Below are positions 14,324-17,063 of a stretch of 64,000 nucleotides of DNA, piece by piece; position 1 is the first letter of the stretch, and each line of letters starts with the position of its first letter. The translations under genes and the position numbers were made by a program. The notes below the pieces were generated by a model. That model made no database searches and was not told the DNA's origin. It saw only the letters and a list, made by a program, of their open reading frames with translations. The stretch is from Camellia lanceoleosa (lineage: Eukaryota > Streptophyta > Magnoliopsida > Ericales > Theaceae), in assembly GCA_025200525.1 (NCBI GenBank), contig CM045758.1:3774706-3838705 (forward strand), written 5' to 3'.

Positions 14324-14476
14324 GTTATCTCCATCTCATTTTTGGATAAGTTCATCTTCATCTCATTATACATATTCATGTTAGATAACTTGATACATGT
14401 TCATGTTTAACTCTTGTTACATGGTGCTTCTATTACAAAATGTGATCGCTCATCCATTGTCTGCATTTCTTTTTAG

Positions 14477-14828
14477 ATTGGTGACCTTGGCTTATCAAAG
14501 GTAAAACAACACACTTCAGTGTCAGGGGGTGTTCGTGGAACCTTACCTTGGATGGCACCTGAACTTCTTAGTGGAAAGAGTAACATGGTTACGGAAAAGG
14601 TAAGATTATTCTGAGCATAAACTTTAGAAATATTTAGTTTACATAGTTGTACTTCATTCTCTCTCTAAGAGGTTTTTAATTTCTTCTTTAGTTTCTTTTG
14701 TGTATATTATTATTATTATTTCTTTTTTTCTTCATTGTAGATTGATGTTTACTCATTTGGGATTGTCATGTGGGAATTGCTCACGGAAAACGAATCTTAT
14801 GCGGATATGTATTGTGCTTCTATAATAG
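14477..14828 (+). pseudogene. Captured fragment of a Raf-like (PB1-type) MAPKKK kinase domain, two exons
   Basis: Exon 14477-14599 follows a TTTTAG acceptor. It reads [19 protein letters not shown], then [12 protein letters not shown] and VTEK, that is, the magnesium-binding DFG position (here DLG, as in plant Raf-like kinases), activation segment and APE motif. It ends at an AAG|GTAAGA donor. Exon 14741-14828, after TTGTAG, continues in phase with [15 protein letters not shown] and ends ASIIG|GTATGC. The junctions agree with those expected in plant Raf-like kinases. N-lobe, catalytic loop and C-terminal lobe are missing, and the next exon belongs to a different gene, so no active kinase can be made. 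Confidence 0.85.
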
Positions 14829-14891
14829 GTATGCACTGATATATCTATCCAGTTTTGTAACAAAAAGTATAAGAATTATATTCTGCTTTAG

Positions 14892-15085
14892 CACAGCTAA
14901 TGACGTGGAAGACCGCAGTAGCCAATATACCATACGGTGGCGCTCAAGGAGGGATAGGATGCAATCCAGGGGAATTAAGCATGTCTGAGCTAGAACGACT
15001 CACCAGAGTTTTCACCCAGAAGATACACAATCTTATTGGAGTGCACATTGATGTTCCAACACCTGATATGGAAACAAATCCACAG
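14892..15085 (+). pseudogene. Captured exon of NAD(H)-glutamate dehydrogenase
   Basis: After a CTTTAG acceptor the frame reads [16 protein letters not shown], then [24 protein letters not shown] and VDVPTPDM-like text, and closes at CCACAG|GTTTAC. This is the substrate-binding exon of plant glutamate dehydrogenase, normally a mitochondrial enzyme interconverting glutamate and 2-oxoglutarate. The conserved lysine of the GGAKGG motif is glutamine here (CAA), and PDMGT has become PDMET, so the exon has drifted. No other GDH exon is present. It directly follows the kinase exons in the same orientation. Confidence 0.88.
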
Positions 15086-15698
15086 GTTTACAAAAGATCT
15101 ACATTATCACAGAATTTTAATGGTTGTTTAAGTTAATAACTAATGTTGTTGAGTAGTTTCCATGTACATGCTTTCTAATGTTTGCTGAAATTTTAAACTG
15201 ATTTTTGATTGTTGTGTGTTTAAACAGATGATTGATTTGATAATGATGCGGTGTTGATTCGTTTGAAACCAGACAGATCTGTATACATTCATTAATTCCA
15301 AAACTAAAATTTTGGTTTTTAATATTTTCTGTAACATTTCTATGCAAATACATGTCTCTAAATTCCAAGTCACATTCTCATTTCAGTAGAACTCATATAA
15401 CATATGGATTTCAAGTTTTTTCAATGAAAAATCACATATGATAATGTCTTGATTTGTATGATCTCTTTCGAGTTATATTTCATAGCAAGTTTATACATGT
15501 GTGTACATAATCAATATCAGAAATGATTCTTGTATGTGCAGTTATATCTCCATGTTCCTAGTTGATTATGCTTATGTTTCATTGGAAGTTTTGGACACTT
15601 AATTCAGAGCAAGGATTACAAAATAGTAGATTGCAAGGACTTTCAATGTTAATTTTTTCGATAATAACGTTAACCATTTATTTGTGAAGGAAGAGAAG
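15086..15698. other. Spacer in the captured-gene region
   Basis: AT-rich, intron-like sequence between the GDH and RPL3 fragments. It may be flanking intron captured with either exon. No further coding recognised. Confidence 0.4.
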
Positions 15699-15783
15699 AT
15701 GTCGCATAGGAAGTTTGAGCATCCCCTGCATGGGTCCCTTGGATTTCTCCCACGGAAGCGTGCTGCTCGTCATAAGGGAAAAG
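15699..15783 (+). pseudogene. Captured first exon of cytosolic ribosomal protein L3
   Basis: AAGAGAAG precedes ATG at 15699, and the frame reads [16 protein letters not shown] then [12 protein letters not shown]. This is the characteristic N-terminus of eukaryotic uL3, a protein of the 60S subunit near the peptidyl transferase centre. It ends at a GT donor (AAAG|GTATAC), where the normal first exon is expected to stop. The Arg-to-Leu change in HPRHGS and Arg-to-Lys in RHRGK are small drifts. No later exon follows. A duplicated phrase, AATACATACAAAGAGAT, occurs downstream at about 15807 and 15926. Confidence 0.88.
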
Positions 15784-16081
15784 GTATACTTACTTGGTTT
15801 CTTAAATACATACAAAGAGATGTTCTCCCCACAGGTACATCTCTGTTCGAAGAGCCCTGTCTATGACTGATTTGCATCTGATTAAGTGTAATATTTTGGT
15901 GTTTTAGTCTTACTATATGTATATTAAATACATACAAAGAGATTTAACAAATCTAATCCCTATATTTTGCTTTTTAAATTTGATATAAGTTTGAATCAAG
16001 GGTTGTAGATGTCCTTTGACTACTTGAATAAAATTATGTTTTCACACTTAGGCACATATACAATTTTATAATTACGTTTAG

Positions 16082-16201
16082 CATGCAGTGAGGGAGAGCT
16101 TGCGAGCTTCCAAGAAAGAGTTCAACAAGATAGAAGACGATTTGAAGTCGTTTCAGAGCATTGGGCAGATAATCGGAGAAGTTCCTCTTGACAATAAGCA
16201 A
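16082..16201 (+). pseudogene. Captured exon of 26S proteasome ATPase RPT4
   Basis: After ACGTTTAG the frame reads HAVRESLRASKKEFNK, then IEDDLKSFQSIGQIIGEV and PLDNKQ. This is the coiled-coil/OB-fold junction of the proteasome regulatory-particle ATPase RPT4 (S10b). Plant RPT4 has two extra residues between GEV and PLDN, so two codons are deleted here. The AAA ATPase module is absent. It has the same orientation as the other three captured fragments. Confidence 0.82.
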
Positions 16202-16556
16202 TGTAATTACTCGTTTCTTTTGTTCTTTATTTCCATTTTTTTGGGGTGAAGGAGGGGTTCTGGAAATTGTTTGTGAAATCATTTTAGCCCAGTTTAGAAT
16301 CTGGAGTCTTGATACATGCCATGCAAAAAAATACGAGCTCTAGTCTATTATGGGTTGCCTGTAAATGGAATAATTCATAATGTGCTCTTAGTTATTAAAT
16401 TGGTCGATTAATTTATTGTAATGAACTTAAACTTACTTTTTCTTAGTAAACTCTTCTGTGATGGTTTGAACTTAAATGTGGTATTGATTGATTGCTTGTG
16501 GGTAATTTTGTGATTGTTTAAGCAAGCAGTGGACCCAGATATATAGTTGGCTACTC
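16202..16556. other. Spacer between RPT4 fragment and CACTA subterminal repeats
   Basis: AT-rich sequence without recognised gene or repeat. Confidence 0.4.
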
Positions 16557-17035
16557 GCAGTAAAGTAGATATTAATCACACTTAAAATCTGTGATCTAAA
16601 TGTTTATTATCACAGGTTTTATTAGTTATTAATCACACTTAAAAAATGTAAATGTTATTAATAAGGTGTGATCTAAATATTATTAAGCACACTTAAAAAA
16701 TGTGATCTAAATGTTTTTAATCACACTTAAAAGGTGTGATCTAAATGTTATTAAGCACACTTAAAAAGTGTGATCTAAATATTATTAATCACACTTAAAA
16801 GATGTGATCTAAATGTTTTTAATCACACTTAAAAGGTGTGATCTAAATGTTATTAATCACACTTAAAAGATGTGATTTAAATGTTTTTAATCACACTTAA
16901 AAGGTGTGATCTAAATGTTATTAAGCATACTTAAAAGGTGTGATTAAAAATGACCACTTTTAATCACACTCCCAAAGATCACACTTTAACAAAACTTAAA
17001 AGGTGTGATTAAATAACATACATCACACAAAAAAA
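16557..17035. repeat. CACTA subterminal repeat block
   Basis: About eleven copies of a roughly 38-bp unit, ATCACACTTAAAAGGTGTGA followed by TCTAAATGTTATTA. Each is an inverted repeat (TCACACTT/AGGTGTGA). Dense short subterminal repeats beside the terminus are the usual transposase-binding region of CACTA elements. Confidence 0.85.
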
Positions 17036-17046
17036 GTGATCTTTAT

Positions 17047-17063
17047 CTATTTTTGTAGTAGTG
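17047..17063 (-). repeat. CACTA terminal inverted repeat, right end
   Basis: Minus strand reads CACTACTACAAAAATAG. The partner TIR is not in the window, so the 3-bp TSD cannot be verified. Confidence 0.75.

Follow-up and report, generated by a model that had tools for sequence, protein, structure and literature searches.

Within the window, as we call the 64,000-nucleotide stretch of Camellia lanceoleosa DNA analysed here, pieces of four host genes lie beside a CACTA terminus. These genes encode a Raf-like kinase, an NAD-dependent glutamate dehydrogenase (GDH), ribosomal protein L3 (RPL3) and the proteasome protein RPT4. All four are represented on the plus strand within 1.73 kb (14477-16202; Table 1), an arrangement that the first-pass annotation had read from the letters of the DNA and that protein comparisons bear out. 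Against solved proteins, the best E-values were 1.9e-11 for the kinase, 8.5e-32 for GDH, 4.7e-12 for RPL3 and 1.4e-14 for RPT4 (with its two exon pieces joined as one query). The top solved-protein matches of the kinase piece are animal MAP3K12 and plant CTR1, and its label as Raf-like comes in part from the names of matches in a protein search. Pfam confirms the family of the kinase, GDH and RPL3 pieces; it returned no match for the RPT4 query, nor for a peptide encoded at about 15224-15290.

Most pieces retain the splice signals claimed for them at first reading: an AG precedes and a GT follows both kinase exons, the GDH exon and the first RPT4 exon, and the RPL3 piece starts with its ATG and is followed by a GT. 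The kinase fragment is indeed present, and it proves to be two exons with the intron between them retained, which goes beyond the original listing. For RPT4, too, the fragment named at the outset is there, and a second, broken piece downstream had been missed. The identity of these chunks, their order and their orientation are established directly. We rejected the idea that they are separate local genes: the donors are unrelated and each is reduced to one or two exons. The shared orientation was likewise rejected as a sign of function, as four pieces would point the same way by chance in 1 of 8 cases. Between the RPL3 and RPT4 pieces there is a 25-nt direct repeat (15797-15821 and 15919-15943, 92% identical, 122 nt apart), perhaps a trace of joining.

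Table 1. Positions of the captured pieces and of the transposon features around them
Feature	Position	Strand	Basis or remark
LTR retrotransposon, apparent 3' end ...ACATCTACA at 14323; a smaller one nested inside	1..14323	+	gag and terminus; 5' end outside window
Candidate right copy of 5-bp target duplication (GTTAT) of the LTR retrotransposon	14324..14328	.	position only; partner outside window
Isolated subterminal-repeat-like motif TTACAAAATGTGATC	14433..14447	+	weak; 1 mismatch to TTAAAARRTGTGATC
Raf-like kinase exon piece A (IGDLGLSK...VTEK)	14477..14599	+	protein match, Pfam, splice sites
Raf-like kinase exon piece B (IDVYSFGI...CASII)	14741..14828	+	protein match, Pfam, splice sites
GDH exon piece; GGAKGG lysine is Gln	14892..15085	+	protein match, Pfam, splice sites
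RPL3 first coding exon; Arg10 is Leu	15699..15783	+	protein match, Pfam, starts at ATG
RPT4 exon piece; two codons (LR) missing	16089..16202	+	protein match, splice sites
Second RPT4 exon piece (ASSGPRYIVG); broken	16511..16570	+	TG for AG acceptor, in-frame stop, +1 shift
CACTA subterminal repeats, period 34	16570..17013	+	TRF, self-comparison, motif count, folding
Right terminal inverted repeat CACTACTACAAAAATAG	17047..17063	-	exact motif match
Candidate right copy of 3-bp target duplication (GTG)	17064..17066	.	position only; partner outside window

The right side of the collage carries the features expected of a CACTA (En/Spm) element, at one end only: a CACTA terminus with direct and inverted subterminal repeats. 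Elements of this class are described as having CACTA ends, subterminal direct and inverted repeats and 3-bp target duplications, and as being mostly non-autonomous and often carrying host fragments (PMC8978399, PMC8195511). The exact terminal repeat CACTACTACAAAAATAG is the single site of its kind in the window even when three mismatches are allowed. Matches at that tolerance also arose in 21 of 100 shuffles, so the weight of this one lies in its exactness and its position. The subterminal array was recovered by tandem-repeat analysis (TRF, 16658-16948, period 34, 8.6 copies) and as ten copies of a 45-nt stretch beginning at 16570, with at least 61% identity. Its core pattern, allowing up to three mismatches, has eight matches in the window, all inside the array, against an expectation of 0.00. 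The presence of subterminal repeats and a CACTA end, as first annotated, is thus well founded, and both features are established directly. The consensus unit contains TCACAC/GTGTGA as an inverted repeat, which part of the units keep imperfectly, and the folding of the array in single-stranded form is better than that of 200 of 200 shuffles (z -6.0). The similarity to RPT4 breaks off at 16570, exactly where the array starts, and the last repeat ends 33 bases before the terminal repeat.

Within the window there is no second match that could serve as the left CACTA terminal inverted repeat. The motif at 14433-14447 is the only one of ten TTAAAARRTGTGATC-like matches outside the right array, with 0.10 expected in the window, and it might be left subterminal sequence. 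Of 78 stop-to-stop frames listed over 14324-17800, 10 of the longer ones, lying within 14473-16339, gave no Pfam match to a transposase; their sole signal was a weak cupredoxin match (E 0.013), below its cut-off. Rfam returned no match across the whole window at gathering thresholds.

To the left of the collage lies a retrotransposon, recognised from a gag frame at 6-428 (Retrotrans_gag, 1.7e-09, Pfam), from its orientation and from its terminus. We infer the boundary at 14323, because no second copy of that terminus occurs in the window. Its 5' LTR was not recognised in the window left of 14324; self-comparison gives a nested pair instead. This pair, direct repeats from 1874 and 5561, about 3.66-3.69 kb apart (about 1866-6215), is the likely LTR pair of the nested smaller retrotransposon, and tandem repeats lie between its LTRs at 2685-4118. 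The left retrotransposon also holds a long array of 20- and 39/40-nt repeats with GGGATACGTCCCTA (8609-9906). The stretch described in the first-pass annotation starts at 14324; that edge looks like the end of the LTR retrotransposon and not like an element terminus, and the retrotransposon seems to have gone into the CACTA element on its left side. Such an insertion would explain the lack of a left CACTA end in the window.

Other structures lie farther to the right. Satellite-like tandem arrays occupy 49886-53376, with units of about 800 nt, and 56257-59582, with units of about 500 nt. At 59938-62324, seven pairs of inverted repeats (46-175 nt, 80-98% complementary) share a single centre and form a near-palindrome of about 2.4 kb that resembles a fold-back element. 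Long open frames overlap on opposite strands at 44322-45110 and 44528-44935, with strong GC skew and no Pfam family at E 0.01.

Related collages in Camellia gene models

With the joined fragments as query, a search of proteins gave 2607 matches. Among the best 120, two C. lanceoleosa gene models stand far above the rest. One of them, P0001 (148 aa, annotated as 'Glutamate dehydrogenase B'), can be rebuilt at 148 of 148 residues from window exons 14585-14599, 14741-14828, 14919-15085 and 15690-15866, with GT-AG boundaries at every intron; the window is therefore the P0001 locus or an identical one. Read from its sequence, this annotation is a transposon collage listed as a gene. The other model, P0002 (216 aa), lies on another contig and carries the kinase, RPL3 and RPT4 pieces in window order, without GDH. 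The contigs of the two models differ in their listed lengths, 226,342,766 and 177,741,710.

A second protein search, with the RPL3 and RPT4 pieces, added three models from C. sinensis. P0121 opens with six residues from the end of the GDH exon, continues with RPL3 and then RPT4, and has RPL3 exon 1 and the RPT4 exon joined in frame. P0125 has 12 out-of-frame residues from the end of the GDH piece, RPL3 out of frame and RPT4 in frame. P0135 reads a non-coding stretch upstream of RPL3, then RPL3, then 13 out-of-frame RPT4 residues. When the 326 fetched proteins were checked for at least two fragments (E up to 0.05), only P0001, P0002, P0121 and P0125 contained them. P0135 does not pass this two-fragment test and is counted on the strength of its RPL3 Leu10, the upstream stretch and the 13-residue out-of-frame match. 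Two RPL3 residues distinguish P0121 from P0135, so these are different copies or alleles; the listed length is identical for the contigs of both. The three C. sinensis models may represent only two loci. A third protein search (97 matches) brought no further collage copy. The first-pass annotation had proposed looking for the pieces together elsewhere, and they are found so in one further C. lanceoleosa and three C. sinensis gene models. A literature search on CACTA, gene capture or gene fragments, and Camellia gave no paper on this collage, judged by title, and none under three gene names.

The copies share derived states, in counts that cover the proteins returned by the searches. For RPL3, the window, P0002, P0121 and P0135 have Arg10Leu, which is seen in 0 of 106 further homologues (the frame of this exon is a different one in P0125); for the kinase, the window and P0002 have Leu14Ser and Pro60Ser, seen in 0 of 12 others. 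RPT4 KIED, found in the window, P0002, P0121 and P0125, is a weaker marker, because one of the remaining fetched proteins, P0309 from Coptis, has it too and because Ile fills the corresponding column in 2 of 86 homologues. The window and P0002 also end RPT4 by an identical shift to SQ-stop, and GGAQGGIG is confined to P0001 among the fetched proteins. Translated non-exonic parts match the copies as well, both in the intron that follows RPT4 and in the stretch upstream of RPL3. The same order together with shared derived changes means that one assembled collage was inherited or copied, as opposed to repeated captures. The ancestry common to the models in two Camellia species is thus established directly, and the copies on other contigs and in C. 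sinensis are known from gene models alone.

At its amino-terminal end, P0002 resembles TIR1 along 40 residues (E 1.3e-4 with the whole sequence, 0.0027 with the stretch alone). Pfam gives nothing relevant for this part, and the window has no counterpart to it. This may be a captured TIR1/AFB-like piece situated left of the kinase, which would make a fifth donor, or a neighbouring gene fused by annotation.

Decay of the coding parts

Comparison of window residues with the commonest residue among the returned homologues revealed changes in every piece. The GDH piece departs from consensus at six positions, three of which are identical in 106 of 106 homologues, including the GGAKGG lysine, and it matches the C. 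sinensis GDH P0017 at 58 of 65 residues. The kinase piece has five changes, three of them where 12 of 12 homologues agree. RPT4 has seven besides its two missing codons, and RPL3 has two. The glutamine in the GDH motif and the loss of two RPT4 codons had both been pointed out at first reading and are both in the window.

Between the window and the C. sinensis copies, 84 of 94 residues are identical in exon pieces, compared with 77 of 82 in translated non-exonic parts; these are small numbers of uncertain orthology, and they exclude the two codons missing from RPT4 and a gap of about five residues in the non-exonic part of P0121. Exons are therefore no better kept. In addition, the models read the same exons in different frames: P0125 departs from the original frame in GDH and RPL3, and P0135 does so in RPT4. 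The changes at invariant residues, the stop, the frameshift and the differing frames argue against a maintained protein. We thus rejected a maintained fusion protein, given that frames vary among copies and invariant sites have decayed. The earlier suggestion that purifying selection is absent gains support from the consensus comparison and from these frames.

Origin of the collage

Very probably, the locus is the right part of a non-autonomous, gene-capturing CACTA element (Pack-CACTA) that holds genomic chunks, introns included, of the kinase, NAD-GDH, RPL3 and RPT4 genes. This was also the reading of the first-pass annotation, and it is the best supported one. The host fragments sit on the inner side of the right CACTA end, and the term 'inside' rests on that one end. 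A transposase supplied in trans by an autonomous relative would act on the terminal inverted repeats and a partner protein of the transposase on the subterminal repeats, as described for CACTA elements in PMC8195511. For the gathering of the pieces, fusion of neighbouring insertions is a published proposal (PMC8903248). The assembled collage would then move as cargo of the element. Later, an LTR retrotransposon would have inserted near the kinase piece and separated that piece from the left end. The kept splice sites would let passing transcripts splice into chimeras, with no maintained protein.

Alternatively, another capturing element or a repair process (Helitron, Pack-MULE, filler DNA) could have built the collage, with a CACTA element inserted later beside or into it. 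Such a history would fit the visibility of a single terminus and the fact that the other copies are known from gene models. We consider it unlikely, as the fragments lie on the inner side of that terminus, RPT4 similarity stops just where the subterminal repeats begin, and CACTA elements with several host fragments are documented in the literature cited here. Physical adjacency is all that we found in favour of a local gene cluster or segmental duplication with no transposon. That explanation is scarcely credible for four unrelated housekeeping genes, each trimmed to one or two exons, which adjoin a transposon terminus and recur in C. lanceoleosa models whose contigs differ in listed length.

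A retained chimeric gene, with a spliced transcript that is under selection as the message for a protein or as a regulatory RNA, deserves consideration in view of the gene models with spliced pieces in two species. The window model uses GT-AG introns throughout, RPL3 exon 1 and the RPT4 exon are joined in frame in P0121, and one chimera is a named isoform, LOC114266001 isoform X1. Counter to this, gene models are predictions (the named isoform is an annotation prediction), the models differ in frame, the exonic identity does not exceed the non-exonic, and the window RPT4 contains a stop and a frameshift and has lost an acceptor and two codons. We therefore regard selection on such a gene as very improbable. 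The possibility of a chimeric transcript, raised at first reading, is a separate matter: the annotated spliced chimeras strengthen it, short of proof, since they are predictions. In our judgement just as improbable as the retained gene is a Pack-CACTA element with captured parts of five genes of core function (auxin F-box, Raf-like kinase, GDH, RPL3 and RPT4) that has been kept expressed and spliced since before the split of tea and oil camellia, its sense chimeric RNAs feeding small RNAs that tune the donors.

On the Pack-CACTA reading, a collage common to gene models of two Camellia species would make it possible to date capture relative to amplification. It would also test, in a woody genus, whether the kept splice sites of captured exons yield chimeric transcripts, and it offers an example of gene-capturing elements entering gene catalogues as false genes.

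Comparison with known CACTA elements

The phenomenon is a known kind of event, in that CACTA elements with several captured donors have already been described. The present analysis adds related copies from two Camellia species, the RPT4 piece missed at first reading, a candidate for a fifth donor, and a gene whose annotation is wrong. The closest known system is Tgm-Express1, a soybean CACTA transposon in the wp allele with five donors (Zabala & Vodkin 2007, PMC1947982). Like the Camellia element, it is made up of exon and intron fragments from several unrelated host genes (five in soybean, at least four in Camellia), and the canonical GT-AG sites that are used in chimeric splicing in soybean are kept in Camellia. 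It differs in its donors, species and family and in its place in intron 2 of F3H1. Moreover, both inverted-repeat ends and transcripts were observed in soybean, whereas in Camellia one end is visible and the copies come from gene models in two species (PMC1947982).

Other plant CACTA elements resemble the Camellia collage in part. Maize Pack-CACTA elements are also non-autonomous and often contain coding DNA of several loci (PMC8903248), but the Camellia element is visible at one end only. The Tpn1 family of Ipomoea nil and the LsC1 family of lettuce likewise consist of non-autonomous CACTA elements that have subterminal repeats and carry fragments captured from the host. In the description given by PMC8195511, they have shared subterminal regions with unlike inserts and subterminal units of 10-20 bp, whereas several Camellia copies have the same insert and the window array has a period of 34. 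In Chenopodium, CACTA elements likewise contain host fragments, among them one 80-bp AP2 fragment common to three species. As reported in the consulted portion of PMC8978399, each of those elements has fragments of a single gene and there are transposase-related domains, in contrast to the at least four donors in Camellia.
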